Positions 12,513 through 50,500 of a DNA stretch of 64,000 bases are shown piece by piece. Every line of letters starts with the position of its first letter. Position 1 is the stretch's first letter. The notes below the pieces were generated by a model. The model was not told the DNA's origin, made no database searches, and saw nothing but the letters and a program-made list of their open reading frames with translations. Made by a program: the position numbers and the translations under genes. Source of the DNA: Marisa cornuarietis (lineage: Eukaryota > Mollusca > Gastropoda > Architaenioglossa > Ampullariidae). The DNA lies in NCBI GenBank assembly GCA_004794655.1, contig SMMW01000046.1, positions 9,101,501 to 9,165,500 on the forward strand. Reading direction: 5' to 3'.

Positions 12513-12714
12513 GAGTAAAACAGCCACCTCCTTTCATTGCTGGAAAGAAAAGCTGTTTTTTTACCAGACGGTAAATAGTTCTTCATTTGAGAGGTCAGCT
12601 GTGATCTGGTATTAGGGGGACAGTACAGAAGAAGCAATGGCAGGCTTATCAGATAATGAGATGCGCACTGAGTTGCAAGAGCTGCAGATGCAAGCCAATT
12701 TAGTCACAGATGAG
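12513..12714 (+). CDS. SNAP25: SNAP25 exon 1a: 5'UTR plus first coding segment (ATG at 12637)
   Basis: The acceptor follows a (TTC)n-rich pyrimidine tract (TTTGCTACAG, ending 12512), so an upstream non-coding exon must exist. The ATG at 12637 has G at -3 and +4 and an in-frame TAG at 12613-12615, which fixes the start. It encodes 26 residues ([17 protein letters not shown]..., ending LVTDE) and ends at donor GAG|GTAAGT in phase 0. The segment matches the canonical SNAP-25 N-terminus (human ...MRNELEEMQRRADQLADE). Confidence 0.9.
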
Positions 12715-24700: not shown

Positions 24701-27700
24701 TAGCGTGGGCAAGCCGCGGCGTGTGGAGTGCGAGGTGGCTGGCTACATGGCTGTCCCGTGGTGCAGGCCTTGCTCGGTGCCCGCTCCCAGAGAGGCGCGC
24801 TCATTAATTAGTGATGATTTTGTGTCAGACATCAGCAGAACCATGTCGCGCGAGGCAGCGCGGTGTTGTTTCGGAAGACCAGCGCGGGAACCTAGTTTAT
24901 TGCCAGCGTGTGATTAGACGCAGCGTTTCCGTTAGTGCTACACTCGTTCACCCGATAGAATAGAGACTTCCCAGCAGTTCCGTCGTGGCGGGTCCGCACA
25001 CAGGCAGGCGTTGAGCAGCTTTGCGCGCAGCGACACCGCCACCTCCACCACCACCGTCACCATACGCCTTCATCGCCAGCACTGTTACAACACGTGGCCG
25101 TCGTCCGTTGAGGTTGCTGCAGCGGCTGGCGCTCGGGGGAATCTCGGGACTTCCCTGTTTGCTGAGAGCCGTGGGCGGGAACCCCCTTCATCACCACCAC
25201 TACCGCCAACACCACCACCAGCGTGCCTGACCGAGCGTCCCCCGCCGACGCTGTCGTCGAGAGGCGGGCGGCGAGGATTCTGTGAACGCGTTCAAGCAGC
25301 GCGCGTGGCGGCAGTTCCATTCTGAACCGTATCGAGCGGACGCGCGTCCTAGGTAAGCGCTTCGTGGGAACCTCGTGTCAGCTGGGACTCGGATCCGAGA
25401 GAGAAGGATGTTGCCGAGAGAATACGAGACGTTGTTTTGACCACCTCTCTCCCACCTTTCTGGTTCCCCACCTCCACCCCTACAACTCCTTTCCTCATTC
25501 TGCCTACCTACCTACCATTCCCTTGTGCTGAACGAAGTGTGCTGCTGCATTGGCTTGCGCTGAAAGGATAAGGCGCGGATGCGTGCGGGCAGCAACACCT
25601 GACGTAAGTTGCTTGCACGTCTTGACGTGATTGCAGAGCTCGTGCAGCACGGCACCGTCGTGACGACATGCGCATCGTCGTCTCTCGGTGCCGTCTGTGT
25701 GTCTGTGTTGGGAGGAAGACGGTGACTTCCAGAAATCACAAGACCGGCCAGTGTGGTTGTTCATGATGGCCTAAACGAAAGGGGCCAGTGTCACTTCAGG
25801 GGGAAAAAAAATCTTACCAACCAACCAACACGCGAAGGACAGCTAACGCAATCTGGCGGGTTTTTTTTTCGGGGGTGGAGGAAGCTCTGATTGAACGTCA
25901 TGACGATGCCATAAACGTGTTGGTGGTGGCAACGTGTTGGTATAGCGTGGTTGTTGGTGCCACCACATTTAAGCTTCTTGCGGAATTGCGTTCCAAAAAG
26001 TGAAGTGGTCTGAGTTCTCTCATTATTATCTTCAATCTGCTGCAGAAGAGGTAACTCTGCGGTCGTTTGAAACGGAACAGCTGCTTGAAATATCGAACAC
26101 CTGTGGATAAGTGTTTTACAGAGAAGCCAAGCTTACATCACGTTTTCCTTTCTACTTAAAAAACGGCGTATTGTCATCCTTCGTCCAACTTCTTCTGTGT
26201 AAAGTTTTGTGGAACCACCACCTCTTTACTGAGGGAAAGTTTTGTTTTAACACCATGAGTGGGCCAAGCGGCCAGACGACTGTTCTTGTGGGAGAGGATG
26301 CTGAGAGGGAGGCGCTTATGAAAAGCATAGAGGATTCAACAAATGAAGTAAGATCTTTAGCCATCTTAAGCACATTGGCGACTTGATATAAAGGTATTGC
26401 ATCCTAAGATTATTAACGACTTATTAAACTATTTTTTTCTAATTTACCAGCAAAATTGTGGGCGTTTATAGTGGAAGCCACCAGTGCAGCTGATAGCGTT
26501 TGAAAATTGCTATTTTTTTTAAACAGTTTAAAATAAAAAGAATTGTGTTTTTTTTCCTTTTCAGAGATTGTTGTAATGGGTTTTTAGGTTTGGACTTCGT
26601 GCATCAGAAAAATCGAAAGCATGTGTAACATGCTTCCGCCGTGCGTCTTGAACGGAATCAATCGACAGGCAGCAAATTAAATAACAGATTAAACATTCAG
26701 GTCGCGTACTTGGTTGGTTAAATAAACATTTTAAGTTGTGTCTGTTTGTTGGTACATGTGCGCTCCTGTCCGCATTAGTCTGGTCTTCGCCACCTCGCCA
26801 GGTCACCTCGTGTGGCGGAACAGACGACCGCGCTTGACCCCCGCCAGTGTCCGTGCGGCAGGCTGTTCCCCGTCATTCATAGCGGGCCTAAGAGACACGG
26901 GGACCAGCCACGGCCCTACCGCATTCAAACGATCCCCATTAAGTTGGTCGGGATTACTTTCCGACACGATGTGGTCTGGTGCCATACGTCATCGACTGTC
27001 TAGCGCATGCTCGTCTTTTCTCGCCGCCGCCATCGAGACTTGGGTCGCTTCGCAGAGGTCCACGCACTCATGCATTTTGGATGGAAGAAGAAGAAATCAT
27101 AGCCAGGGAAGCATAATTTGTGACCAGCGAACCAGTGTTTGATACTGGCGGATGGGGTCGGGTTGGTGGGAGGGGGGGGAATGAATCCCATTCTTGCTCG
27201 GCGTAGACGTGGCCATCAATCGTAAGCGAAGCATTTTTTTCTTTTTTTTTTTTTTTTTGCTTTACCGCTCCAGCGAAATTGTTATGTTGGCCATCGATCG
27301 CACGAACGAGGCCGTCGAGTCGGCCTGTATGGCGGCAAGGATGATTGTGCTGCAAAACGTACTTCTTGTCCGGGGTGGGGGGAGGGTGAGTGCGGTGGTG
27401 TGGGGGAGTAGGCAAGCGTCAGACGTTTTTCTCTTTGGGTTCTATACCGTCAGGTGATCATGTAACGCCCTGTCACAGTCCCCTCACCAAGCGACCAGCC
27501 TGCTGTGAGTCGGCCCCACAACCAGCTACAAATACAGAATAAAATGCCGTCTTTTCCGTAACTTTCGCAAGGATAAGGGGATTGCCGGGGGGAGGGGGTA
27601 GATCCTGGCGAGTTGTTTTAATTGGTTAAAAAAATAAATCCCAAGAAAAGAAGAAAGTAATGATGAAGAATGTTCGCGAATTATTGATTTGTCAGGAGAA

Positions 27701-33700: not shown

Positions 33701-36700
33701 TTTGATCCTTTGGAAATCGATGAAGAGAATGAAGCAGAAATGGATACAGGGGTTATCGAGGCTCTAGTACGGTGATAAGAGCGGCAGGCCGGAGGACTCG
33801 CTATGATTCAGACCTGCACCCTCCAGATCAATGCCAGCACGGAACGAGGCCGATTGATTTCACTCTTCCTCTGAGGAGGGTTTTGTGCTGTCGGACGAAA
33901 TAAGTGTTTGCCAAAGAAAACAAGAATTATGGGAAGGATAGCGGTCGGGAAGGGGGTTTGAGAGCCCGCAGAGCCGGACGAAAGAATGCTTTGTGGGTCA
34001 TACACATGCCATGGGGACGAATTGCGCTCACGCCGCCGTAGTTTTCTTTGCGTCTGTTTCCTTTTGCAGGGCCAGGCAAAGTCAAAATGCAAAGTAGGAT
34101 GCTGGGAGGGATTCGGCCTTTTATCCTCCTTATCATTTATCCCTCTTTTGTGTCCATCTCTCATCCTTCCCCACCTCACCCCCTTTTTTTAAAAAACTGT
34201 CATCTCATTTCCTAGGGGACTGTTATTAATAAGAATGGTATTGTGATATGCAGTACAAATAGTTGACCACAGTTTACAAGAAATTATATACTATAGTGTG
34301 TAAAATAATTAATAATCACAAGCCTGTTTATTGCATTCACCTATATATATATATATTAGACATGCTACTGGGAGAGTGAAGGCAGTGCTAAGGTAGTGTC
34401 TATTGATGGGCACAGTAAAGCTTTGTGACAATTCGTATTGGTCTGGTCATAATTCTGATATAATTTCTTCCCTTTTGCGGCTATGTTCTGTCTGCATGCT
34501 TATCTAGCAGCATAATTTGCCACTTTCCCCTTATCATTTTTTTTCCTTTTGTAGTAGTAGTCAAGGTTAGAGGTTGGAATGACTGGCAACATGTTCTTAT
34601 CTGCTTGTATATTTTTAGCTCTACCTTTTGATCATTAATAATTCCATGTCTTTTGTACCTTTGGCCCTCGCCCCCATTGTTGTGAGATGATCCTATATAT
34701 TAGAATAAATAATTTACAGCAAATTAGGAAACTGGTGAGAGTAATGTGTGGTTTTTTTTGGTTCCTTTACAGAGTATAAGGAAGGTTTTGAATGTCTTAG
34801 TGGTCTGAAAGTGTTAATCAGTAGACTACAGATGTGTGTTTTGGAAAAGGAAGATGCTGATAAATCCCGGATCCTTTCCCCTCCAGTACTTCCTTTTAGA
34901 ATGACACATGACCTCCTTCTTATTGTTAGCCAGTTCTGTTGCCATAAGGTTTCTGACACTGGGGTGGGGGGAGTCTTTGGTGGTGGTCTGGTCGCATGGT
35001 AGTGACTTAGATAAAGTGTCTGGACAGCTAGCACTATGACTGCAAGAGTCATACAAGGGCGGAAAAGAATGTTCTTAACCAGGCAAGAGTGAGGAAGCAT
35101 TTCAATTGTTCCATTTTATCAAAGAGGGTTGGGGGAATGTAAGTACCATGGTGTTCTGCAGATTTACAGAGTAAGTTGATAAATAAGATTAGTTTTGTAA
35201 TTATACCTTTCTTTCCAGAACACCATAACATACTAACTCAGTTATGAAAACACCCACTTTATCCATTAAGGTCAAAAAGATTTATTTATAAGTGCTACAG
35301 TGCTTCACGGTGTTAAGGTGAGAAAAAGGTCACTTAGCCTAGTACATGTAGGGGCAGTGAACTGTAATTGGTTCATGTCTATGAGTTCGTGTAGTAAATG
35401 TTCATATAGAGCCCAGCATGTTGAAGCCAGAACCCAACCCTCTCCATTGATAAATCAGTTATCTGCATGATGGGTATCCTAAGGAAAGTTTTCCAGCCAA
35501 AGCCAGGGCAACTTGAAATGCATGACTTTCCATTCTGATATCAGTCATGCTAACAACCCCAGAGTTCAGTGCATCCACCTTTGATTATTATAGTTTAAAT
35601 AATTCTTTTCCTTTTTTTATATTCTTTCTCTGAACTAGATGAAACTCACATTTACTTTCAGACACCACTTAGTCTTTTCTCCCAGTTTATCTCAAAGACC
35701 GAGGAACTAGTTATCTTTTGCTAGCCAGTTTGTATCTTTCATAGACACTGAGGCCGTCTTCATTCAGTTATGTTAAAACTCAGTTTTAACCAAAGATTTA
35801 AAATGGAAATGTTCAGTAACTTTTCATTTTCAAAAGTTAAATAAAATATTAATTTTTCTTTTATAATTTTTAATCAATGTTTTTCTTGCTAATCACTAAC
35901 CTTTTGAGCATTGAACTGGACAACAGTCTGTATATGTGTTTGAGGGAAATGGGATAGGGAGGGGAGAGAGAGCAAGTGATTGAAAGTTTGAAAGTGGATC
36001 CAGGTGCACATACATTTGTTTTCATATTCTCATCTGTCTTTATTACAATACATTTTCTGTCTTTATGTCTGCTGTATCCATTAGTCCATTTGTATCATTG
36101 TTTGTTTTGCATTTGTTTCAGTCCCTGGAAAGTACACGGCGTATGTTGGCATTATGCGAGGAGGTAAGGTCTTAAATATTCCTACAGTAAATCTTCAGCT
36201 TACCAACACCTAATATTCAGAGGTTGATAGCAGTTTTGTCAGTGATCCAGAGCAATTCTTTTTTTTTTTTTTTGCCAGTAAACTTTCACAGGGTATAATG
36301 TTCTTGCGAAGTGCAGGAGTTTTAAAGATAATTTTCTCAAATGTAGAAAAAAATTAATAGGTTTCATTTGAAACAAGTTTTGTAAGCTTTCCAGAGCTGG
36401 AGCGTTTAAAATAACTTTCCACAAAAATTTGCTAGAGCAAGGAGGCTGGCATAAAGACACTTGTCATGTTGGACGAACAAGGAGGTAAGGATGATAATCA
36501 ATTACTGATCGATGTTTTAATTTTATGGGCGCTGTCCTGCATGGCAAATTTTGATGTTGTTACTTTTGTTTGGAGGCTTTTTGTCTCTCTTGCCAAGATC
36601 CCATCATCGTGCTTCTTTTTTTTTCTTCAAATTTTGGGGTTCTTATGTAGGTTCTAATGTCGATTCAGTTTATTTTTTATTCCAGATTGTATTCTTGAGC

Positions 36701-39700
36701 AATTGAAAATAAAGATAGCTGTTGACATATGGGATATTTTTGTGATTTCTAGGAATGAATTCTTACATTTTTTGTTTATTACATTTTTCTCTTTTCATTA
36801 CGATAGTTTTTTGTAGGCTGTTATTTACCAGTAAAGTTAATTATTTAAAATCACCATTTATTAATGCAAACTCAAGATCTCAAGGGAGGCTTTGAATTCA
36901 GATGCGTAATACTCCACATCTGTCATTGGTATAAGCTTATGTGTAAGTTTTTGAAACATATTTTAATGGTGTTGGTATGGAAATTCGATTAAAAAGAGAA
37001 ACATTCAGATTAAAAAGAAATAAATACTCATAATGAATATGGAATTGTTTTATGTGTAGTTGACTTGCTGTATTTTGTTTTCTCCCAGAAAGTTAAAACA
37101 GCTTGCAAATTGTTACGAAAATTTGTGCATGAAGATAATTTATGCAGTGAAGGAATTAAATGCACCAGCCTCCAGCCCTCATGCATACTACATTTTAAAT
37201 TCATGGTTTTCTGTGTAAATCATAACAACCAACACCATCTGAGTATATTTATATTTTAAAAATTTACATATCGTAAATACCAGTGATTGACAGAGCATGA
37301 TGCATCATGTTTTCCTCCCATTTTTATATAGATCTATATATATTAAAAAATTTGGCTTCAATAAATGAGAATAATGTGTGAGTGTAGGCCATTTATAAAA
37401 CAGCTGAGAGTAACCTTCAGCTATGAAAGTTTTGCAAGTTCCATTCAATACAAGAACAGTCATCATGTTGCTCTTTCAAGTCATTGAAAACATTTCTATT
37501 GATCTGAACCTTTCTAAGGTTTAAAGAATTTATTAGCTATGTGTCACAGGAAGATGACGTATCTTTGTGTTTAGTATTCATGTTGGGATTTGCATTGACC
37601 AGTCATTTTTTCCCCTCTCTGGTGACAATTTTATCTCTCCCAGAGAAAGATACGGCTCGATGTTGATCAAAAGAAGTATTGAGATCCATGTTTTCATATA
37701 ATTTTGCTTTAGAAAATGACATGCAGTTTTGCTCCTAGAATAAATTTGATTTCAGTTTGCAGTCCATTTTAATCAAAGCTTATGAAGCAAAAGGTTAAAT
37801 AATTGGGGTGTCCAGATGTTGGGCAAGGGCGTGACACTAGAAAACTAGCTACTCTTCTGGAGATCGTAGGGACCGATTTTCTAGGGAGAATTTTTGTTTT
37901 TCTTGAAGATGACATCCTTCTTATACTGTGGCCGACCCAGAACAGAGTGTCAGTGTTTACATTTGTCAGACCAAAACATTTGTCACTCTCAGAAGTGCAG
38001 GAATGTGATACCTGATACATCAGTGTACTATAGCATTAGAAGAAAGCATGCATTGCTGTCTGCACATTTTAACCATTCCTGCAAAAACACTACTGTCAAA
38101 GATTTGCAGTGCACTTCTCTCAGGTCTTTGATGTTGTTTTGTGTGTGGACATGAAATTAGTCCTCCAGGCAACCACACTATAAACTTAAATGAAGGCTTT
38201 TTGGATTTCACTGATGTCAGGATGTGAAAAAAGTGTGCCTCTTTTAGTTTGAGTTGTAGCCTCTTTTTAGTTTTACTCAGTTGTATTATGACTGACAGGA
38301 CACTTTTATGTTCAAGATTGCTGCTTACAATTTTCTGTAGGAATGAAGAAGCCATAAAGTTATGTAGTGAAATAAGTAAATAAATAATGCATTGAAAAGA
38401 AAACTTACTGTTTTTTTGTCATATGTGGAAATATTAATCAATGGTTCTTAGACTGTTAGACTTAGGAGTGGATCATAAATGTTTCAGAATGGCTAGCACT
38501 GACATGATGTAACATACATTCTCTGTATTTCATGCATTTTCAGTACAGTAACAACCAAATCAAATCAACAGAGGAAAAGTAATTAAATATAAATGTTAAA
38601 AAGTGTTTCACTTTTTCTTCAGCTTTCTATGCTGGTTGTTTATTAAAAGGAATAGAACCAATAACCATTGTTATATATCAAAGCATTTTAAGAACAAAGC
38701 TCATGTAGTGTGTTCTTAGAATTAACATTGCCTTATTATAATACACATCTCAGATGAAATCCCTTAGTAACTTTGAAGATCCTGGTTCTGATGTTGTCTC
38801 AGTTTTATCTCATCTTTGTTCTGTTATAGTCTTTACATTTATTATTTTATTTATTTAATATTAGTAAAGTAGACAAAGGATTCTTTCTGGTTGTGATTTC
38901 TCAACCTAGAAAAATTCTGCTTGAGGTAGTGACTTTTATTTGATGTGGGTGTTGTACTGCTGTTGCTTGCAGAGTCAGGATGTGGGGGTGAAAACTCTGT
39001 CCATGCTGGACCAGCAGGGTGGTAGGTAGTCATACACCTGCCACTCCATTATTATCTTCATATTGCATTCTTTGATGGGTGTGACCTGTCCTGTCCAGAG
39101 TTAAGTTTGATGTGTGGCCATTGTGGCTGTTATCCATAGTGGTTCCATTATGTTTAACACTGTTAAAGGGATGAGTAAGTGAAATCATTATCGCTATTTG
39201 CCCAAGCAGCAGTCACACGTCTGATGAAGATGTCTTTCATGCTTTGGCTTGATGCATGCTTGACATACTTGTGCTCTTTACCATATTGGCTTCCCCTTAA
39301 TACTGTCATGTTTTTCTTAAGGTAGATACTGAATGTAAGATTAAAAGCAATGTGCCGCATGCACCGTGGAACAGTTCTAGGATTTTAGTGGGATAAATTT
39401 GATGAATAAACTTAGCGTAAACAGAAACAAATTAAGACCTAATAGTTTTTTTTTTTAAGGCATATAAGATAAAATTTGTATTTGCATTCACCAGAAGTAG
39501 TTGTTCCTACTGTCCTTTTGCTTTGTTGATTCAACAGTTAAAATAAGTGTTTTTATCTTATTCCTTTGTTTGCTTTGGTCATTTTATATAAATGTTTGGT
39601 CTTTATTTTTATTGCCTTGCATTATTGTTTTCTTATAATTTCTTTTTTTTGAGTTGGCAATTTAGTTGAAATATTAACATACAGTTATTATTTTTGGACA

Positions 39701-42700
39701 TATTATTGCAGTACATTGTTATTAACAAATAATAATTTATAACAGTACAATTTCTGCTAATTTCTTTACACCGAGAAAGTTCTTTCCCTGAATATTTATC
39801 AGAATATTCTAGTTCTGTCAAATACAAATGTGAAGGGTTGAATTAAACTGCAGTCACAATTCCCTTGTTTTGAGAGAGTAAAAGTGCCAGCATGTTCTGA
39901 CGAAAAGTTTTAGTTTTCATATATATATATATATATGTTGATGTTGGTGCTAAAATCAAGTCAGAACAGAGGAGGGATGTATATATATATATAGATGTTA
40001 CTTTAAAAGACTGTGGTAGAAAGCTGCTAATGACCATTGGTTTTTGTATTTAAAAATATCAACTATTTAAATTATGTAGTATATATTATAGTCTTCCCCT
40101 TCCTTTGTTATATTAGGTTTAATCAAACAGCATCATTTTTTTTCTTCTTAATCATTGGTAATCCACATAATGTGGATTGCTAAGTCTTTAAAAAAATACT
40201 GTAGTACCAGGTCAGAAAATTAGACACAATTATGAATAAAATATGAACCAAGTCAGTATTCTAACATGTCACAGATGTGAATGCTTTCTGTTTGTGTTAA
40301 AGTATTTGTATTTCATAAAGGCGAGGGGTTCCTTTGGTCATATTTTGAGACATAGTGTCTTGAAATGAACAACACCCTTTTATTTTATTAAAAAATTTGC
40401 ACTAAATTCTTACTAAAATCTTTTAATTCTCAATAGTTTGCAAGAAGGTTGACAGATATGAACATCTCTATTTCTTATTCTCACTGTTTTTCAGAGCAAC
40501 TGGACCGTATTGAGGAGGGTATGGATCAGATTAACCAGGACATGCGAGATGCTGAAAAGAACCTGGAGGGCTTAGAGAAATGTTGTGGACTGTGTGTGCT
40601 TCCATGGAAAAGGTCTGTGTGCCCAGTTACTTTATTTCACAAACACCTACAATGAAATCAAAAAGCCTTCAATGGGCTGGAAAATGGTTTGGAGAAGAGA
40701 ATAAGCTTGTGTCTGTCTTTGTGCATGAGGTAATGTTGAATATAGGTAAATAAATTAGTGGAAGGTAAGGAGACACTTGAGTGTATACAGAAATCTATAG
40801 TTGTACATATTCATTCTTGTCTAGTCTTTTACCCCCACCCTCTTCATACACATGTATATGTACATTTCACTTATGCATGTATGGTTCAGGTTTTAGGTAT
40901 AAAGAAGTTCATAGCTGTTTATTGATATATTATTGAATGCCTAAAATTATTAGGTTATAAAAAATACTTCATTTATTAATTGGCTGAATCAGGTCAAAGA
41001 ACTTTGAGAAAGGTGCCGACTACAACAAGACATGGAAGGCATCAGAAGATGGAAAGGTCAATACAAATGGCCCTCGTATTGTAGTTGATGACCGCAATGG
41101 GGCAGGACCTCAAGGGGGTTACATTACACGGTTGGTACATAGTTATGTTGGTCTTTATATTTTTCTTTGTATAGTTCTTTTCATAAATTTTGCCTTTGTT
41201 TCTTTAAATCCTTTCTTTGTATTTCATTAAAAAATTTGAGGAAATGATATACATAATGCCTGATGCTCATTTTTTAAAAGCTAAAAGCTGAAGCAGTTAG
41301 TTTAACATAGATTGTAACATCAATAAGTGTGCAAAGTATTCTATGATTTTTGTAATTATGCTAATAGCAGTCTGGCATGGTCCAGTATTATTTGCAGCAG
41401 TTACTCTTTACCAGTTTCTTGACCATCTGCTGACTAGATGGTTTCTTCATTAGTTTTATCAGATTACCCGCCTGTAAGAAGATTCACTTTAAATGAATCA
41501 TTGCCCTGGTCAGCAAGGTTAGCAGTCTTGGCCACTATTCCCCCCACCAAACCCAGGTGCTCACCAGTCTTTTTCCTGGCAATACTACATGCTGTTGTCC
41601 AGCTTTTAAACCTGCCCATCAACAGCTTGGCTGTCTAGTCAGCTGTTTGTATGGAGTGTTTTTTTTTCTACCTCAAGAAAAAAGAAGAAAGAGATGGAGG
41701 ATTTTTGTTTAAGCTGTCAGTAGTCCGTCTGCTTATACTCACATGCTCTGCGGATCCTGTTTGTCACATTGTTTTTGCCAAATGGCTGGGTGGGTTCAGG
41801 TTTGGAGGGATGAGTTTCTGCAGGTGGAGTTAGGGCTACACTTCTGCTCATGGGGATCAGTGTTGCCAGATAAGACCAGTTTTTCTGTTGTGCATTCTAC
41901 TGTGTGTCTAAACATTCATGGCTTCTCTTAGTTTTCTCCTCTGGGAACAGCCAGATTTCTTCTTTTGCTGGCCATCTTTCTTCTGCCAACTCTTTTCTGG
42001 CCGATACTTTTTATCATCAGGGTGTGGGGGCTGGTGGGGTCCTGTCTGTACCTGCCTGGTGGGTAAACATGGCCCTTAGCATGCCAAACGAGTATGACCT
42101 TGTTGTGCAACTCCAGCATTCTTGACATGACCATTATGCAGCTGGCTCCTATCCCGAATAGAGTCCCTAGGCTTCTAGTGGCTACATGCATGAAACGCTT
42201 GTGGAGACTTTAGACTTTTATGAAGATAATGAGGGAATTTTTTTACGGTGGACTATTGAGCTGTTGTAACTTTTGTGAAACATCTTACCACCAGACTGTT
42301 GTCTGGTCATTTTGGAGGAGCACAACTATTTCCCCTATTGACTGTGGATAGTGTTTGGCATGTCCTGCTATCACCCATGCTCCCTTGAAGTGGGTGACAG
42401 AACAATCCATTTTTCTGCTGGCCTTAGCCTCGGCAGTGAAGGTGTTGAAATTACATGCCCTTTTGGACTATTTTAACTACTTGCAGTTTTGAGATGACAT
42501 CTGTTCATCTGCTCATAAATCTGTCTTTTCTGGCTGAGAATAGACAGCATGGTGTGAGCCCTCAGTTATATTGACCTGGCCTGCTTTCTTCCAGATGTGG
42601 GATGGATACTTCTATGTCCTCCTCTTCATCCAGACCTTCGGCACACCTCTTCATAAACATTTTCCTTCTGGATTTTCTGTCATTAAAGATGCTTATAAAC

Positions 42701-45700
42701 AGGTATCACCTTCAGCAGTTCACCAGTTTAAGGTATGAGCGCATGAGGTGCAGGTGGTGACTGCTAGCCTAGCCTTATATCATAATGTGGCTCTGGCTGA
42801 TATTATGACCTCCATCAGGTGGTACTCTGCATGCTATCACTGTAATCTGTCCCCTATTCTAATGTTTTGCATCTAGTTGGCCCCCATCTTGGTCACACAG
42901 CATGGCACAGCTTTAACTTTACTGCAGGTGTGCTGCTTGGTCAGAGAGCATGGTTTTAACAGAGCCAGCCTTCTGATAGTATTCTCCTGATAGGCCATCT
43001 GAAGAAATGACATTTTCCTTGTAAAGGTGGACGCACCTGGGTGGCAGACCATTAACCCTGCTGGCTTGGAAATGATTTGTTTGGTTAATGAACAGCTGTA
43101 GTTCATAAGCGTGTGACAGAAAATCTACAAGAAAGATTTCATTTTGTGAAATAGACATAAAGCTGAACTGTAAAAGCTAAAATGTTTCCTTTATTTGACT
43201 GCTTTTTGGAAATTTCCACCCATTCTAAAACTTTCCTGGAAATGTACACAATGTAGATTTTATTAATTAACCTGTGTGCAACTTTGTGTGTTTGCAGAGT
43301 ATTGAACGATGCTCGAGAAGATGAAATGGAGCAGAACATGTCTGAAGTATCAGGCATGATTGGGAATCTGCGAAATATGGCTGTTGACATGGGCAACGAG
43401 ATTGAATCACAGAATCGACAGATTGACCGTATTAACCAGAAGGTAGTCTCTTTGCTAAGCAAATATCATACACAATGTTCACCAGAGCAGCATTTTTACC
43501 TAATAATATGGGTTCTTGCTGAAAATCTAATGGCCTTTAAGACACAAGATGTCCATAATTTTAGTTAGTTTCTTTCTGTACACATTCATAAAAGTTGGTG
43601 CCTTTTATTTATTTATTTTTTGTTATGGGAATGTTTTTTTCTGTCGTCCCCTATTTCATAATGATGATTGTCTGCATGTCCAGCCTCTTCCTATCTACCT
43701 GTCTGGTGCAGCTTGTTAATTCATCACTGAGTATACAGTGAATTCAAACTTTATTCTTACTGCCCCAGCTGCATTTGCATCACTGCATCATGCAGTCAGC
43801 ATTTTCCACCTGTCATGTTCTACTGTCTTCTGTTGCATGCAGATGTTTTGCTGACCTATTGGTTTTGCAGCAAATGAATTGACTTGTGCAGTTAAGAAGC
43901 ACAGTCTACTGACTGAACTCTCAAGCTGCTGTGTCATGCCTCTGCTGGCTGTGCTATGTTTAACTCAGATCAGATGTTTGAGTTTGCCTAGAACATACCT
44001 CTACCTATTCCATAACCAGATCTTCTGTGGTGTTTGTGTGAGAGCAGGCACTGACTAACCTCTGTGAATTTACCTGACCAGTCACATTGTACTGACTGCA
44101 AAAATCCTTCTTTGCTTCAACCGCTAACCTGCAGATGGGTTTTGCTTCCTGCTTTTCTGCTTTTATTGTTGGTTAAATATTTGTTGTAGGTGATGCTTTG
44201 AGGTGTCAACTTTACATTAAGCTGGCAGTTGACTGTTTCTTCCCAGTCCTCATTTTTGAGAAGAAATCTTGGTCATTCAAGAAGCTGATTGCAATAAACT
44301 CAGCAGTATTTATTATGAGAGCATGTCAGTTGGCCACATTTACTTTGATCAGTTTGTAGTGATCTGGAGAGGGTCTTTACAAAGAGCTTTACATTGATGG
44401 GACATCCAGCAGACACCATGTTCTGGTCTTCAGCTCAGTCTTACACTTTCATCCTTCCTTCAGCCATTCATGAAATGATTCAGGGTCTTGAGAGAGGTCT
44501 GAAAATATGTCAGTGTTTTAGATGATCTGCTAGAAATGTAATACTCTGGAATAGCATAAATCCTATCCAGAAAGTGAGGGGGCGGGCTGTGTGTGCGCGC
44601 ACATACCTGTGTGTATGCTTGTTTGTGATACACGTGTAAGATAATTTTTTAATTCTGTATTTTCACAGCAGTATTAATTGAGCACTTGAGGACACGAGTA
44701 ATAAAATATTTCGGTGTTAGTTGTACTCACTCTTTCGTTTGTTTTGAATTTCTTTGATCTAGGTGGATTTTTTTAAAGTGCATAAGCTGTACAAATAAGA
44801 GCATTTACAAAAAAGTTCAAAAGTACTTCTGAGATCAGTTGAGTGTAGATATCAGAGGAACTTATTTATCCCTTCCCCACACCCTTCCTATGCAGCTGAA
44901 AATTTTAAGGATTTCACATTAGCTTTTTCTTAATACCATTTTTTTAAAAACTCAGAGGGCAAAAGAAAACACAGGTAGGAACAAAGTAATTCTTCATGAC
45001 TAGCCTGTTTCTTCTATTTCCAATAAAGCCAAAACAATTTTCACAGAAAGCATCAAGTTTGTTGTGAAAGGAACTCCTAAAAAGAATAAAAATTACCAAA
45101 AACTTTATACTTTTACTGTATACCATCTATGTAGTAGTAAGCCCAGATTAGTTACTGCCAGTGTACAGTTTCAAGAGGCTTATTAACAATTTATCTTGGG
45201 CACAAGCAAACTGAAGAATAGCTGCAACTACTTTGTGTGTGTGGTGCTACAGATAATTTTTTTTTCATAATGATTGAGGACAACAAAGGTGCCTTACAAA
45301 ATGTAGAAGCTGCTAGAATTATCAGTTTCAGGGCAAGAATAAGAACTATTAAGCTTGTTAGCACCACATGCTTAAGGCAGTCTGCATGTTTTAAGAGTAA
45401 TCTCAAAGCTGTTTTTCCCATGGTCATAAGGGCAGTGCACTGCTCTGTTTTTGCAGTGAGGATTTCTTTCCTTATAAATGTTCGACTGTTTTGGGCATTA
45501 TGTAGAGGAGATTGCATGTTGTTGGTGCGTGCTGTTTTGTCCTTAACCTGTCTTGCTTATCATGCTTTCTCTACAAGTCTTTAACTATTCTCCTTGCAGG
45601 GAATGTCAAATGAAACACGCATTACGGAAGCCAATAAACGTGCTACAAAAATTCTAAAAGAGAATTAGCTGCAGTGGAGTGCAGCTCAGATCAGTGCTGT

Positions 45701-46959
45701 AGTTAAAAATCAGCGCTGGTATGCTGGGACATCCTTTGGTAGTGTCAAGAGTGACTTTAAAGACTTGGTCCCATTGTGGGAACAACATAAGACAAGAATC
45801 TGTTTACAGAGTAGTCCAGTCTTTAGACTGGGCATATGTTCCTTTTGTAGTTTCTGTAGTTCAAGAAGCTTTTTTTCCCCCTTCTGTATAGTTCATTTGT
45901 CTTTTTAAAATTTGTGCAATATTGCCCTCAGTTGCTTTTGCCTTTTTCATCTTCTAATCATATTTTCTCAGCTTGTAGATATCACTACTCTTTGCCACTT
46001 TCCATCCTACTCATCCTCAGTATCACCACCGCCACCTACTTGAATAGGTCTTCCTTAATTTTGTAAAGAAACTTTCATCAAAATATTGTGTTTCACTCCA
46101 GGTAATCATCATTTTCCTTAAAAGACATTTCATAAACATTTCAAGCTTAAAAAATTAAAAAAAAAGATTCATTACTTGCCATGCGCTTTCTTTTTGGCAC
46201 ATTTGATGGAGTTTCTTCCAGGCACAACATCAGCAATGTATTTCAATACAGCAGTTTCAAAACAGATGCATCTTAACAGACTTTACTTTTACATAATTTT
46301 ATAATTTTGGTGAGATTCTTTTCTGTCAAGTTTAAATTTTTTTTGTTTTACTTCTTGGTAGCAAAAGATGGGAGTATTTTTTTTTTACGTTGCAGCAGTA
46401 GAAAAAAACTGATTTCATTTTCTTAGACTGTGGTCGGTTTTATCAATGGTTCGTTAAAGCATGTTATTTTGCTCAGCATATCTGTTAAGCAGCAGAACGA
46501 TTTAAAATATTTTCACAACTACTGAATTTACAGGTACTGAATATGATAGAAGGTGATGATAAACATAGAAGTGTATGATGCTTCAGTTATTTTATTTCAA
46601 CTGTATTTTTGAGTTGTGCTGACTTAATAACTTTAGGAACAGCTTTGTTTATTCAATGGCAGTACTTTATATTTTTACATCATTTTGTGAAAAAAAAAGT
46701 TTGTCTCTTATAGGTAGTGCTAAAGTAGCAATTTTTTTTCTATCTGTGTATGCTATACTAGTTGTCTTGGTTGTCTTTGTTAAAGCTTTGTTTCACCTTT
46801 CGTTTTGTTTTTTGTTTTTCTATTCTTTTCCGTTCACCATCTTCCCTTCCTTCCATGTGAATCGTCAACAATTGGGGTGCTACTCTGAAGGGCGAGTCAT
46901 TGAACAGTCGTGTGGACAATGCCAACAAGAGAGCCAACAAGATCCTTCGCAACCAGTGA
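12637..46959 (+). CDS. SNAP25: SNAP-25, Qb/Qc synaptic SNARE, with alternative first and last coding exons
   Basis: SNAP-25 pairs with syntaxin and synaptobrevin in the four-helix SNARE bundle that fuses synaptic vesicles with the plasma membrane. Exons 12637-12714, 36122-36163, 36436-36484, 40495-40612, 40993-41130 and 43298-43442 plus one of two terminal exons (45600-45668 or 46891-46959) join in exact phase to 212 codons, close to the 206-212 usual in the family. First SNARE helix: [14 protein letters not shown]...[20 protein letters not shown], with the zero-layer Gln in DEQG. Linker cysteines: CCGLC. Second helix: [18 protein letters not shown], with its zero-layer Gln in ESQN. An alternative first coding exon (26255-26347) lies inside the 23.4-kb first intron. 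Identity is certain from the helices; isoform usage is inferred. Confidence 0.96.
12715..13157. other. SNAP25 intron 1, nothing recognised before the RTE fragment
   Basis: AT-rich intron sequence. The direct repeat flanking the next element occupies 13150-13157. Confidence 0.5.
13158..14188 (+). mobile_element. 5'-truncated RTE-type retrotransposon fragment
   Basis: It starts within the reverse transcriptase ([20 protein letters not shown]), continues through [20 protein letters not shown] and [12 protein letters not shown], then after a frameshift near 13545 through [28 protein letters not shown] and [12 protein letters not shown], ending in an ATG/GAT simple-repeat tail (about 14170-14185). 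It carries stops near 13350 and 13880. It belongs to the same superfamily as the copy at 989-3690 but is a different subfamily by sequence and tail. An 8-bp direct repeat TTTTCAAA at 13150-13157 and 14189-14196 is a plausible target duplication. It lies in SNAP25 intron 1 in sense orientation. Confidence 0.92.
14197..24639. other. SNAP25 intron 1: long non-coding stretch
   Basis: No conserved coding frame on either strand. Up to about 19.8 kb it is AT-rich and CpG-poor, with TA and TG runs (15816-15830, 16341-16373). From about 19.8 kb the DNA becomes markedly richer in CpG. A 21-nt T run sits at 21649-21669. The ORFs of 60-130 codons here (for example 21488-21886) have no recognisable protein features. 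Confidence 0.5.
24640..25352 (+). promoter_or_regulatory. CpG-rich block, candidate internal SNAP25 promoter and non-coding exon
   Basis: Dense CpG with GC-rich triplet runs (CACCGCCACCTCCACCACC near 25030) ends at a strong donor-like site CCTAG|GTAAGC at 25352/25353. About 690 bp downstream an acceptor (CTGCTGCAG, ending 26045) opens the exon with the alternative start. The simplest model is a start site in this block, a 5'UTR exon ending at 25352, then splicing to 26046. There is no TATA box and the start position is not fixed. Confidence 0.4.
26046..26347 (+). CDS. SNAP25: SNAP25 alternative exon 1b: 5'UTR plus alternative first coding segment (ATG at 26255)
   Basis: The ATG at 26255 lies in an optimal context (CACCATGA) and is the first ATG in its frame. 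It encodes 31 residues, [20 protein letters not shown] then [11 protein letters not shown], and ends at donor GAA|GTAAGA in phase 0, exactly as exon 1a does. Either first exon therefore joins the exon at 36122 (SLESTRRML). The last dozen residues keep a helix-forming heptad pattern and the final acidic residue before SLES, as in canonical SNAP-25, but the N-terminus is unrelated and acidic. The acceptor at 26045 follows a pyrimidine-rich run. It is probably driven by the CpG-rich block upstream. Confidence 0.75.
26348..36121. other. SNAP25 intron between exon 1b and exon 2
   Basis: Non-coding. It contains a LINE tail (29922-30770), T runs near 27234-27258, a G run at 28882-28898, A runs at 29584-29601, a CA repeat at 33074-33091 and TA at 34339-34355. 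CpG-rich up to about 34.1 kb, then AT-rich. The 201-residue minus ORF at 28472-29077 is low complexity and unsupported. Confidence 0.5.
29922..30770 (-). mobile_element. CR1/L2-like LINE 3' fragment
   Basis: On the minus strand the end of a reverse transcriptase polyprotein is read in shifting frames: [20 protein letters not shown] (about 30700-30640), [17 protein letters not shown] (about 30610-30560), [16 protein letters not shown] and [20 protein letters not shown] (about 30430-30290), then a 3'UTR with AGCGC-containing blocks and an (ATT)n tail at 29937-29922. These motifs are the usual C-terminal signature of CR1/L2/Jockey-group LINEs. It is 5'-truncated and frame-broken, and shares 3'UTR blocks with the copy at 63755. 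Confidence 0.85.
36122..36163 (+). CDS. SNAP25: SNAP25 exon 2 (14 codons)
   Basis: Acceptor TTTGTTTCAG, donor GAG|GTAAGG, phase 0 on both sides. It encodes [14 protein letters not shown], the start of the first SNARE helix, nearly identical to insect and vertebrate SNAP-25. It is the common target of both alternative first exons. Confidence 0.95.
36436..36484 (+). CDS. SNAP25: SNAP25 exon 3 (49 nt)
   Basis: Acceptor ATTTGCTAG, donor GGAG|GTAAGG, entering phase 0 and leaving phase 1. It encodes [16 protein letters not shown] plus one base. It carries the zero-layer Gln of the Qb helix (DEQG). The intron before it is only 272 bp. Confidence 0.95.
36485..40494. other. SNAP25 intron 3, nothing coding
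   Basis: AT-rich, CpG-poor. TA repeats at 39919-39936 and 39978-39993. No alternative copy of the next exon was found. Confidence 0.5.
40495..40612 (+). CDS. SNAP25: SNAP25 exon 4: end of first SNARE helix and cysteine loop
   Basis: Acceptor GTTTTTCAG, donor AAAAG|GTCTGT, enters phase 1 and leaves phase 2. It encodes (E)[19 protein letters not shown], then [19 protein letters not shown]. The cluster CCGLC is the palmitoylation/membrane-anchor region of the family. Compared with human CGLCVCPC, the last two cysteines are replaced by Leu and Trp and one is added before the Gly. Confidence 0.95.
40993..41130 (+). CDS. SNAP25: SNAP25 exon 5: linker region
   Basis: Acceptor CTGAATCAG, donor ACACG|GTTGGT, phase 2 in and out. 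It encodes (R)[19 protein letters not shown] and continues to [16 protein letters not shown](R), the flexible linker between the two SNARE helices that lies along the membrane. The polypyrimidine tract is weak. Confidence 0.93.
41430..42880 (+). mobile_element. DIRS-like (tyrosine-recombinase) retroelement remnant
   Basis: Two decayed protein signatures on the plus strand. About 41,950-42,120 reads [20 protein letters not shown] then [14 protein letters not shown], like the RNase H end of DIRS elements (normally HIPG..N..AD.LSR...DLFAT). About 42,679-42,836 reads [19 protein letters not shown], a stop, then [20 protein letters not shown] and [11 protein letters not shown], like the C-terminal tyrosine recombinase block (family pattern VRAHxVR.LAASLA...V...DIM.A..W.S). 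Both conserved Arg positions around AHEV are lost (one to stop, one to Gln), so it is inactive. Borders are approximate. It lies in SNAP25 intron 5. Confidence 0.6.
43298..43442 (+). CDS. SNAP25: SNAP25 exon 6: first part of second SNARE helix
   Basis: Acceptor TGTTTGCAG, donor CAGAAG|GTAGTC, enters phase 2 and leaves phase 0. It encodes (R)[19 protein letters not shown], then [20 protein letters not shown] and RQIDRINQK. It carries the zero-layer Gln (ESQN) of the Qc helix. Leaving in phase 0 lets either terminal exon follow. Confidence 0.96.
43443..45599. other. SNAP25 intron 6, nothing recognised
   Basis: Non-coding. The stretch 43650-44560 is less AT-rich and may be an old repeat, but no signature could be identified. 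Confidence 0.4.
45600..45668 (+). CDS. SNAP25: SNAP25 alternative last coding exon A
   Basis: A strong acceptor (pyrimidine run ending TCCTTGCAG at 45599) opens 22 codons and a [18 protein letters not shown] then TKILKEN. It continues RQIDRINQK in phase. Aligned to human SNAP-25 numbering it supplies layers +3 to +8, with Asn at +4 and Ile at +5, as in vertebrates and insects. It ends the protein at the normal position. No AATAAA was noted in the 1.2 kb after it. Confidence 0.92.
   Translation, partial: GMSNETRITEANKRATKILKEN
45669..46890. other. 3'UTR of exon A / intron before exon B
   Basis: T-rich, non-coding. It serves as 3'UTR for isoform A or as intron for isoform B. A pyrimidine-rich tract at about 46800-46856 precedes the distant acceptor of exon B. 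Confidence 0.5.
46891..46959 (+). CDS. SNAP25: SNAP25 alternative last coding exon B
   Basis: A second 22-codon exon with stop [18 protein letters not shown] then NKILRNQ, in phase 0 with the exon at 43298. Same length as exon A and similar over most positions (ANKRA.KIL shared), so it looks like an exon duplication. Layer +4 is Leu instead of Asn and +5 is Val instead of Ile. The acceptor CTCTGAAG (46890) is weak, with its pyrimidine tract about 35 nt upstream, which suggests regulated use. A poly(A) signal follows at 47567. Confidence 0.9.
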   Translation, partial: GESLNSRVDNANKRANKILRNQ

Positions 46960-47566
46960 AGCCTCTCATTTGGATCAGGACTGATTTATCTGCTGTTGTG
47001 TGCAAGGCCTTGGTTGGCAAAGCCCTGGTGCTTGTCATTGAGCATCTGGCAGCATGAAAGAATCCTCCGTTTTCAACACTCCTGCTTTCATCATGCTCTT
47101 GTTTCCAAGCCCCTGTGACTTTGGTGCAAGGTCATCATCACTGCTGCAGCAGGCGCAAGAACTACAAGAATAAGTTGTTTAGAAGCAATGCCAGGGGACT
47201 GGGACAAGTATACAAGCTGCACATTGTTTTTTTTTCCAAAAGGTAATTTTTAAATGAGACAGTGCTTATTCTGTTGACCTGACCATACCTCTCTTTTGAG
47301 GTGTATGTAGCAGAAAAAATACATTACCCTTGAATTTAGAGAAATATAACTGTTTCCCATTAAAGGAATCATTTCAACTGTTAGTTAAATTATATTAACT
47401 ATAGGGTTTACCCTGTTTCACTAGGAATGAAGATTTATGACAAAAACATTTCTTCTGAAGTTGCACAGATTTTTCTTTAACTACATTTATTTTTGTAATG
47501 TATAAAATATAATAATGTTGATTAGGAAGTACTTTACTAAAAAGTCCTTAATTAAGTCAAACACTT

Positions 47567-47572
47567 AATAAA
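47567..47572 (+). terminator. candidate SNAP25 poly(A) signal AATAAA
   Basis: AATAAA about 608 nt after the stop of exon B, in AT-rich sequence. A second AATAAA at 50462-50467 could end a longer 3'UTR. Confidence 0.45.
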
Positions 47573-50500
47573 TTTGTTAAAGAATTGACACTAGTTGAAC
47601 AGTTTACAAGTAGTACACTTTGGCACCAAGTAGTGAACTAGCATTGTTCATTGTGGGTATCTGTTGGGGTGAAAGGGCAACAGTGAAGGTGATAATCATT
47701 TACTACTTTCCCAACAATTATTTATCATCATGAAAGCACATTGTTTCTGGTATGCTAGAGGATATCACTCATTTGTTTAGAAAAGAAGAAGGCAACAAAG
47801 TAGTGTATTGGCTTTCATTCAGATAAAGTATCTGGCAAGTGCGATTTAGACAGATTTTTTTTGGTTATCTTTTGAATGAGTTGTGTAAAGTATGTGTGAC
47901 GTAAAGTATTCTTGAGGGGCCTGGCCAGCCAATGAATGGACATTTACTAGATCTATCCTCTTGACGTGAGCTGCCATCTTGAATGGCAACTATCATTTTT
48001 ACAGGTACGGTAAGAGAAAATATCTTTAAATATCTTTTTTAGGCTTTCTATTTTGTTCAGATTATTGAATTGAAAAGCTGGGGCTTAAAGATTCTAAATA
48101 TTTGCTCAAGCTCATGTCAGGCAGGAAAAAATTTATTAGATGTCTATTCAGGGTATTGATGAAGTGGCCTGATGCATGCTTATATGAGATTTGTTAAGCA
48201 TTGTATGTGCACGTTTTCCATTTGTACATTGCTAACCCTGTTTGTATTACTATATAATGCACACTCTAAACTGGTTACTACACAACTATGTTGGCCCCTG
48301 ATAAATGTATTTATTTGCACGTCAGCGATAAACCCACAAGCTCAAACTATGATTCTAGTATCATGCAGTGAAAGTAACTTTCTATGGTGGTTTGGCATAA
48401 ATTTAAGTTATAAAGACAGGAAAGTCCGTTCATTGAAAGCTCTCAGTGAAGGAAGAAACTTGTTTATAGATCATGATCTGGGATGTTGATTGTTGAAAGT
48501 GATCAGTGATTCTTGTTTGATAGTCTTATTTCTTTAGAAGGTGTCTTTGGTTAAAGAAGAAAGGCTATCTGATTTGGTGAATTATCCCTTATGTAGGGCA
48601 GGAAATTAGGATAAGTTTTGGGATACTAGTGACTAAAAGTGCTGGAGACCTGCATCATAGGACTCAGCAATTTTGGTGTCAAAGGACTTCATTATTTAGG
48701 AAGGTGCATGTGATAGATCTGTGCTTATTGGGATGTTATTTGTTACTGCCTCACTTTAATTTACCTGTACATAGTTCAGAATATCTTCTGTGATATCCAT
48801 CTTGTCTGAGATGACAAACAGGTTCTTTAGAAATTACAATGGTTTTAATTTTTGTTCTTAAAGTACATGCACATTTGATTTTCTTGACACACTTTCTCAC
48901 ACACTGCTATGCTCTCGTGGTTATTGTCACCTGCTGACAGTTCATCTCATGCAATCCGAGTGTTTTGCATGTGGGCATGGGTAGGCATGTGCGTGTGCAT
49001 ACACACACACATATACAACTGTTTTCCTTCTAGAAGTTTTTCAATGCTGTAGTGTTGAAAAATGAAGAGAATGCTTTGCAAAAGACTTGTTAAGATCTTT
49101 CAGGGGAAGGGATAGTACAGAATGAAAGGACTTTCACAAAGCCACAAATACAGTGAATGTAGTCAACACAGAAAGTTTGAAGGACTTGGAGAGTAAGGCG
49201 AGCAGGACTCTTGTTACCACGTAGAGCTTATTGATATGGACTACTACAATCACAGGATGCATTGCTATCAAACTGTTACAGGGTGGAATTTTCATGTCCA
49301 CCTAAGCTTGATGCACCTGTCTCCTTTAAAAGCAGTATTTTTAAACTGTATTCTTTTTACCTCTGGAGGATGCAACTGTTTGACTTTTTGGTGTAACTTT
49401 AAAAACTTTTTAGGTTCTGTCTGCATCTTCCTTTGTTCCTTTGTCTTTCATATATCCTCATCTTCTCACTTATTAGGTTAAAACAAGATTTTGCATCATT
49501 TCTAAGACTTTTCTTTATTAGTTCTGTGATTTTGACCAGTTTGTATTGTAAACATTTTATAAATGACCTATACAGTAATGTATATACTTACAGAGCGATG
49601 CATCTCATCCTTCCATTTGTAACTTTTTTGTCTTTGAGAACAGAAATATGTCTTGTTACCCAGTGTAAAGGTATACCACCGACTTAAAGGGAACAGCCAC
49701 AAACATGTCACAGGGCAAGTCCACCACTCATCTTACTAGCGGACATGCAAAAAAACTGAAGTCCTGGCTTTGCTAGTGCATGGTCACATCTTTGTTGCCC
49801 CTCGCGAAATATTTGCTACTTTTCATAAAGTGCATTACAAGGAAACAGAACTAAAGAGACAAAAAGAAATGTTTATTAGAAAGTGAAGCCAATTATATAA
49901 TTTAAGTAGTTAAAATGCACTTTTTACTCCAACGCTTTTGCCTGAAGCAAAGCATTCGATTTGTTGTCACTAATGTGGTGCCCACTTTTCTGTTTGGAAA
50001 ATTTGTGAAATCCCCTAAAGCCATGCGACACCTTTTTAAAAATTATTTTCCCTTTTCGTGGGCCACTTTAAAAAAGCTGACGTGTTATCTGCATGCATTA
50101 TTATTAAGCACAACTGCTGTGTTTTGGGTTTTCTGTGACAGCCCATTGTAGAGTCGCAGCAGGCTGGATTTTCTTCTGAATTGTATGCCTTTTTTAATCT
50201 CATTCTTCCCTTTAGGTTACTTACTGAAAGATTCCATCCACTGTCTATTAAAGTATGCAGATCGTAGATAGGTACCACCTCAGAAAACCTATTCCCCACT
50301 CCAATTTTTATTATTGTCGGTTTTCTTCAGCTCCCCCCCCCCCACCCTAGGCACCGTCATCATTGTTAACATCTCTTCCTGGCATCTTCGAGTGTAAGGT
50401 TTTTTATGGTGTGGGGAAACTATTTGTAAAATTAGTCTTTTTATGAAAACATTTTATAGAAAATAAATCGTAAGATGTTTTGTAAAATGTTTTTCGTCAA

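Follow-up and report, generated by a model that had tools for sequence, protein, structure and literature searches.

A molluscan SNAP-25 gene with tandem duplicated last coding exons that are likely to reset membrane-proximal SNARE zippering

The window analyzed here, a 64,000-nucleotide stretch of the Marisa cornuarietis genome (534,278,870 bases in 572 contigs), occupies positions 9,101,501-9,165,500 of contig C322 and carries on its forward strand a SNAP-25 gene that extends over about 34 kb, from 12637 to 46959, as placed by tblastn and exon assembly. The first coding exon (12637-12714) opens with an ATG at 12637 and is followed by exon 2 (36122-36163) and by two alternative forms of exon 3, the K40-type exon 3A (36436-36484), whose segment is also present in Pomacea isoforms, and the Q40-type exon 3B (38973-39021), each of 49 nt (16 residues plus 1 nt) and identical in phase. 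Exon 4 (40495-40612) covers the region of vertebrate exon 5a/5b, for which tblastn gave one clear match in the window and no duplicate in the 5a/5b style; it encodes the motif KCCGLCVLP, a candidate cysteine-rich linker with putative lipidation. The linker exon 5 (40993-41130) and exon 6 (43298-43442), which encodes the portion of the C-terminal SNARE helix preceding a swapped tail, lead to what are very probably two real alternative last coding exons, 7A (45600-45668; 22 codons and TAG) and 7B (46891-46959; 22 codons and TGA).

Every acceptor of the coding exons ends in AG and every donor begins with GT, as checked by script, and all four combinations of 3A or 3B with 7A or 7B are open and encode 212 amino acids each; joining 3A and 3B together, or omitting both, shifts the frame. 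The SNAP-25 family domain PF00835 was recovered in the two isoforms tested (78.1 and 78.0 bits, cut-off 25), the first SNARE helix found its best match in 1l4a_C (113.4 bits with 3A, 103.6 bits with 3B), and the second helix scored 82.7 bits with 7A and 79.1 bits with 7B against 1l4a_D. In a protein search, the product combining 3B and 7B was 97% identical to a Pomacea canaliculata isoform. The gene also contains an alternative first coding exon, 1b (26255-26347, followed by GTAAGA), which matches the N-terminus of Pomacea isoform X1 (tblastn E 1.9e-12) and forms an open 217-amino-acid frame with exons 2-7. Exon 1b adjoins a GC-richer stretch at 24-28 kb of the window, a neighborhood that suggests a second promoter. 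Both exon 1b and the 3A/3B pair are additions to the preliminary description of this DNA.

The two last exons appear to belong to a single gene. A protein search of the genome, in which the best candidates were scored, found no second SNAP-25 gene that could supply either tail, and a DNA search scored in the same way placed the exon 7A sequence once in the genome. The other genome matches are a SNAP-29-like gene on contig C387 and two weak matches. The SNAP-29-like gene, presumably so from its likeness to the SNAP-29 tail, is the sole other match below E 0.001 among the best candidates scored.

Direct reading and a script bear out the preliminary description of two equal 22-residue last exons in phase with exon 6: exons 7A and 7B are 69 nt each, both are preceded by AG, and both join exon 6 in phase 0 (43442/43443). 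The substitutions it had proposed, Asn188 to Leu at layer +4 and Ile192 to Val at layer +5 in human numbering, are likewise present, 7A having Asn188 and Ile192 and 7B having Leu188 and Val192. The pair shares 11 of 22 residues, with identical codons at 2 of those 11, and 32 of 69 nucleotides; third codon positions agree in 3 of 23 cases and second positions in 16 of 23. This combination of 11 shared residues with two shared codons argues for an old duplication held by selection on the protein. A chance match is ruled out by scores far above the window background, as 7B scores 52 against 7A with a runner-up at 12 among the 135 stretches of the window, on both strands and with 7A and 7B included, that consist of AG, 22 sense codons and a stop, and, when all 127,868 ungapped stretches of 22 codons are compared, the runner-up reaches 35. 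The exons of each pair, 7A/7B and 3A/3B, are neighboring, homologous, and equal in length and phase, as is characteristic of tandem duplicated exons.

The acceptor of 7A (CTCCTTGCAG) is compact, and that of 7B is weak near the site (GGGGTGCTACTCTGAAG/GG, that is, CTCTGAAG/GG) and lies behind an AG-free, pyrimidine-rich stretch of 103 nt (46786-46888) that fits a putative distant branch point. An ATTAAA at 46154-46159, 486 nt beyond the 7A stop, is a candidate poly(A) signal for 7A transcripts, and an AATAAA at 47567-47572, 608 nt beyond the 7B stop, is the candidate for 7B transcripts; between 7A and 7B there is no AATAAA. From this layout, the choice is likely to lie between alternative terminal exons, each bringing its own 3′ end. 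The hexamer TGCATG occurs at two sites about 85 and 215 bases before 7A and at one site about 50 bases after 3A. We give these sites no special weight, as the whole window is enriched in the hexamer (82 occurrences against 49 expected, a number that 0 of 100 shuffles reached, with each strand counted separately where sites overlap). A search of positions 35000-48000 against Rfam returned nothing at the gathering threshold.

To place both tails among relatives, we drew on protein searches from which the best 120 of 2,388, all 13 of 13, and the best 120 of 3,220 matches were listed, giving 128 different proteins. Tails were assigned to class B by Leu188 and Val192 and to class A by Asn188 and Ile192, and exon-3 segments were classed by residue 40, so that the fixation of residues 188, 192 and 40 inside their classes is circular. 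A tail could be read in 125 of the 128 proteins (all but P0087, P0110 and P0127): 63 were B, 52 A, 9 mixed (seven N/V, one V/I and one L/I), and one, P0128, aberrant. Typically, B tails end in I-L-R-N-Q and A tails in L-L-K-D/E. In Pomacea canaliculata, isoforms X1, X2, X5, X6 and X7 have the B tail and X3 and X4 the A tail; the 7A product of the window is identical to the Pomacea A tail, and the 7B product agrees with the Pomacea B tail at 21 of 22 residues.

The preliminary description had proposed looking for the same exon pair in other molluscs, and both tails are indeed found in 12 of the 39 named species among the matches listed, namely the gastropods and bivalves Pomacea canaliculata, Physella, Babylonia, Littorina, Patella, Elysia crispata, Mercenaria, Mya, Dreissena, Mytilus galloprovincialis, Crassostrea virginica and Saccostrea. 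Elysia crispata has its A tail in one gene model and its B tail in another, and the A and B entries of Saccostrea sit on contigs of different size, which leaves their origin in a single gene open to doubt in both species. Among the matches listed, the remaining 27 species comprise 12 with B only, 13 with A only, and 2 whose tails fit neither class as defined (Dimorphilus and Oedothorax); single-tail species do not prove absence of the other tail, since only the best 120 matches of each large search were listed. The B tail is also present in the chiton Liolophura, in the nemertean Lineus, and in Lymnaea (entry Q869G6, P0051), and A alone was found, among the matches listed, in the annelids Owenia and Capitella, the nemertean Tubulanus, and Limulus. 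The search with the tail only (14 candidates, 13 matches) added just two species, Limulus and the spider Oedothorax, which are chelicerates and have A-like tails. Mammals and squid (1l4a) have the A type. Five squid-like proteins (P0084, P0087, P0088, P0100 and P0106) all have a K40 exon 3, and the tails parsed from four of them are all A; the B exons may have been lost in cephalopods or may lie outside the matches listed.

Many of the database isoforms are probably machine-predicted models, and the short contigs bear indirectly on expression. Forty-nine proteins without a species name come from contigs of 914 to 4,268 bases, which are probably spliced transcripts given that the gene in the window spans about 34 kb, and the 47 tails parsed from them divide into 21 A, 20 B and 6 mixed. 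Two of these contigs, those of P0081 and P0095 (1,172 and 1,228 nt), match each other fully over exon 3 and over exons 4 to 6, yet one has an A tail and the other a B tail. P0003, which is Pomacea-like, joins exon 3B to tail A in a 212-amino-acid protein, a combination missing from the seven Pomacea models listed. Either tail is thus seen in relatives one at a time, in separate isoforms and short contigs, and mutual exclusion of 7A and 7B in the snail studied here is putative. Together with the named species, these isoforms and contigs sustain the earlier proposal of two SNAP-25 variants at the membrane-proximal end that are separate from those of vertebrate exon 5a/5b.

Comparison of the tails across species indicates that the pair is old. 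At 20 positions in the 12 two-tail species, an A tail agrees with the B tail of its own species at 45% on average, with A tails of other species at 69%, and B tails agree among themselves at 73%; in 24 of 24 cases a tail is nearest to its own type from another species, and this holds in all 24 when columns 188 and 192 are left out. We conclude from these same-tail neighbors that the duplication predates the split of gastropods and bivalves, which took place several hundred million years ago, and in the 12 two-tail species we see no sign that one tail exon has overwritten the other. A tree of 62 tails (22 columns, the defining ones included; one tail per named species and class, plus 9 of 51 proteins without a species name) separates A from B by a branch that has an ultrafast bootstrap of 96%. 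The tree omits the spider tail and the six mixed tails that are B-like, and P0089 (Leu188/Ile192) falls on its A side. A leave-one-out profile built without 188 and 192 placed 76 of 77 distinct tails correctly; the exception was P0112, which is B by definition and received log2 odds of -2.3.

The swapped segment lies in a part of the SNARE bundle whose energetics have been studied in mammals. There, Ile67 of SNAP-25 contributes to layer +4, and Met71 and Ile192 to layer +5 (PMC4744192); the same spacing puts residue 188 at layer +4. Counted by heptads, 7B differs from 7A at layers +4 (Asn to Leu) and +5 (Ile to Val) and keeps Gly at +3, Ala at +6 and +7, and Ile at +8. Layers +4 to +6 have been called crucial for C-terminal zippering: alanine at +4 and +6 of VAMP2 lowers zippering energy by 10 and 12 kBT, respectively, the double mutant M71A/I192A at +5 of SNAP-25 lowers it by 13 kBT, and C-terminal zippering mutants of the mammalian complex slow exocytosis (PMC4744192). 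The same source describes SNAP-25 I67N at +4 in a patient and reports that syntaxin T251I at +7 strengthens zippering, citing increased spontaneous and evoked release (PMC4744192). By analogy with these mutants, it is plausible that Leu at +4 alters the final step of zippering, and the net effect of 7B would probably be a firmer fit at +4 and a slightly looser one at +5.

We consider it likely, with good though not full confidence, that 7A and 7B are tandem duplicated alternative last coding exons of a single SNAP-25 gene and that the choice between them resets zippering. The exon pair itself has good support, as both members are intact and in phase, are conserved in molluscs, and occur in the isoforms and transcript-sized contigs of relatives, whereas the separate 3′ ends and the effect on zippering are inferred. 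Under this model, exon 6 would be joined to 7A, in a transcript that would end ahead of 7B, or would skip 7A and be joined to 7B, in a transcript that would end beyond 47.5 kb, each with its own 3′ end. The choice of tail would exchange the second SNARE helix from layer +3 to layer +8, including +4, +5 and surface residues, and, to judge from mutants of the mammalian complex, could reset the strength and speed of membrane-proximal zippering, such that the rate or threshold of vesicle fusion would be set by the tail used in each cell. Tail choice also appears to be freely combined with the choice between 3A and 3B, which would alter the face of the first helix that binds synaptotagmin-1 in mammals.

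The most serious competing explanation is that the tails act through their surface residues or through differing 3′ UTRs, by way of partner binding, RNA stability or localization, with the changes at +4 and +5 being incidental. Nine of the 11 residues that differ between 7A and 7B lie outside layers +4 and +5, the two classes differ in their terminal residues, and two last exons imply separate 3′ UTRs. Moreover, B-like tails that keep Asn188 occur in five short contigs without a species name (P0023, P0028, P0029, P0034 and P0037; log2 odds 13 to 15), and another B-like tail has Val188 and Ile192; the five indicate that a 7B tail need not carry Leu188, and Leu at +4 may be dispensable in some lineages. 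Against this explanation stand the presence of Leu188 in 37 distinct tails, spread over lineages far apart from one another, and the fact that Val192 is missing from one B-like tail only, P0020, both of which are partly true by class definition, along with the importance ascribed to layers +4 to +6 for C-terminal zippering (PMC4744192). We regard an effect through surface or UTR as having a real chance, somewhat short of even.

Two further explanations would deny one of the exons a regular coding role. If 7B were mainly untranslated sequence downstream of 7A, or a rare or poison-type exon, with one tail dominating, the weakness of the near part of its acceptor would be accounted for, as would the donor-like sites past the 7A stop (for example CAG/GTAAT, with a GT at 46102). 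Its coding sequence, however, is conserved across molluscs and forms the C-terminus in 20 of the 47 parsed short contigs without a species name and in 5 of the 7 Pomacea models, and we consider such a role very improbable. We give hardly any credence to the notion that either exon is a duplicate in decay, a pseudo-exon or an artifact of assembly: in its favor, the two share just 32 of 69 nucleotides, but the frame is open, the stop codon stands at the same position, residues are conserved, and counterparts in gastropods and bivalves show the similarity pattern of a maintained pair. The pseudo-exon version in particular is rejected on the conservation, the tail tree and the open frame, and the conservation counts against this explanation unless the homologous models are for the most part wrong. 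We thus retain alternative last exons that reset zippering as the preferred interpretation.

The second pair, 3A/3B, affects the other SNARE helix in a different manner. The two exons share 10 of 16 residues and differ at positions 40, 41, 42, 44, 48 and 52, with K40 and E52 both changed; they agree at 39, 43, 46, 50 and 53, which are layer positions by heptad spacing from Gln53 of the ionic layer. The 3B product of the window matches Pomacea isoforms at 15 of 16 residues. An exon-3 segment could be parsed in 114 of the 128 listed proteins, and the 14 without one were dropped from the counts. The distinct segments comprise 12 of the K40 type (Glu52 in 11, Asp in 1), 24 of the Q40 type (Glu52 in 5) and 4 of neither, and both types occur in 6 of the 39 named species among the matches listed. 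Among the 110 listed proteins with both parts parsed, 98 show one of the four combinations (Q/B 31, K/A 28, K/B 25, Q/A 14), with the caveat that some combinations may have been enumerated by gene-model builders. In the spider Oedothorax, P0122 and P0123 differ in the exon-3 segment only (SKDTGIQTLVALDEQG versus SEDVGVKTLTMLNVQG), the latter having Glu at 40 but V42, K45, T48 and a neutral residue at 52, as in the Q type, and Limulus has a Q40 segment. An exon-3 pair therefore extends to chelicerates, and its age may match that of the protostomes.

Several of the residues exchanged in exon 3 have known partners in mammals. The primary interface with synaptotagmin-1 involves SNAP-25 residues K40, D51, E52, E55, Q56 and D166 (PMC8967716); the mutant K40A/D51A/E52A/E55A/D166A has been used to disrupt it (PMC9811660), and D51A/E52A/E55A impairs binding of C2B (PMC4878868). 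SNAP-25A and SNAP-23 are reported to differ at or near this interface only by K40Q, L47I and V48T (PMC8967716), and Q40-type segments, which have Q40 by definition, partly share these changes, often with I47 (14 of 24 distinct segments) and in 8 of 24 with one of T, I, S and N at position 48. In mammals, however, SNAP-25 and SNAP-23 are separate genes and not alternative exons, and the 3B segment of the window keeps L47. We reject the idea that the Q40-type exon is simply SNAP-23-like, as the likeness is confined to some interface positions and the score is nearer to SNAP-25 (26.3 bits against 23.7 for SNAP-23; K40 type, 30.6 against 22.3). Against SNAP-23, the whole first helix scores 68.1 bits with 3B and 67.3 bits with 3A.

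These observations raise the tentative and in our view rather doubtful prospect of a two-dial SNAP-25 gene in molluscs. One dial, 3A/3B, would set the coupling to synaptotagmin through the change of K40 to Gln and, in most species seen, of E52 to a neutral residue, the core layers staying the same here; the other, 7A/7B, would set the power stroke through layers +4 and +5. The dials would be freely combined, and the exon-3 pair would be protostome-wide, doing by splicing what the SNAP-25 and SNAP-23 genes do in vertebrates.

In vertebrates, the choice between SNAP25 exons 5a and 5b changes residues 56-94. That pair arose by tandem exon duplication and is mutually exclusive, yielding two full-length proteins (PMC2581893; PMC8151252), and the snail gene resembles it in belonging to the same gene family and in having duplicated exons that would provide two full-length SNAP-25 proteins from one gene. 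In contrast, the exon of the 5a/5b region was found once in the snail, where the duplicates are the preceding exon (3A/3B) and the last (7A/7B). PMC2581893 names Drosophila and Torpedo as animals for which no duplication of exon 5 is described, and a term search of its main text returned no mention of a last exon, exon 8, invertebrates or molluscs. Among tandem duplicated exon substitutions in general, 77 of 236 human events are C-terminal swaps, and a Ca-alpha1T exon pair is conserved across protostomes (PMC9741552); the spelling "snap25" has 0 occurrences in the main text of that paper. Exons 7A and 7B share with such substitutions the exchange of a C-terminus and differ from them in that they contribute to the core of a SNARE bundle. 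Among the open-licence papers listed in literature searches, none presents itself, in its title or the opening lines of its abstract, as dealing with alternative last exons or an exon-3 pair of SNAP-25. Tandem alternative exons are already known, as are swaps of C-termini and splice variants of SNAP-25, and the isoforms discussed here sit in database entries; what seems new is that the exchange falls in the SNARE core, that it is so deeply conserved, and that it is combined with a pair facing synaptotagmin.

If our interpretation is correct, molluscs would offer a natural counterpart, several hundred million years old, of experiments with point mutants, with two SNARE power strokes, differing in core layers, in one animal and a viable replacement, made by nature, of the polar residue at +4. 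The identifiable neurons of Lymnaea and Aplysia would allow tail choice to be compared across synapses with different release properties.

Elsewhere in the window, an open frame of 946 amino acids on the reverse strand (4751-7588) has no Pfam match at 0.001. A reverse transcriptase domain (PF00078, 86.9 bits) at 2238-2846 is probably part of a retroelement that extends over several frames at 1-3.4 kb.
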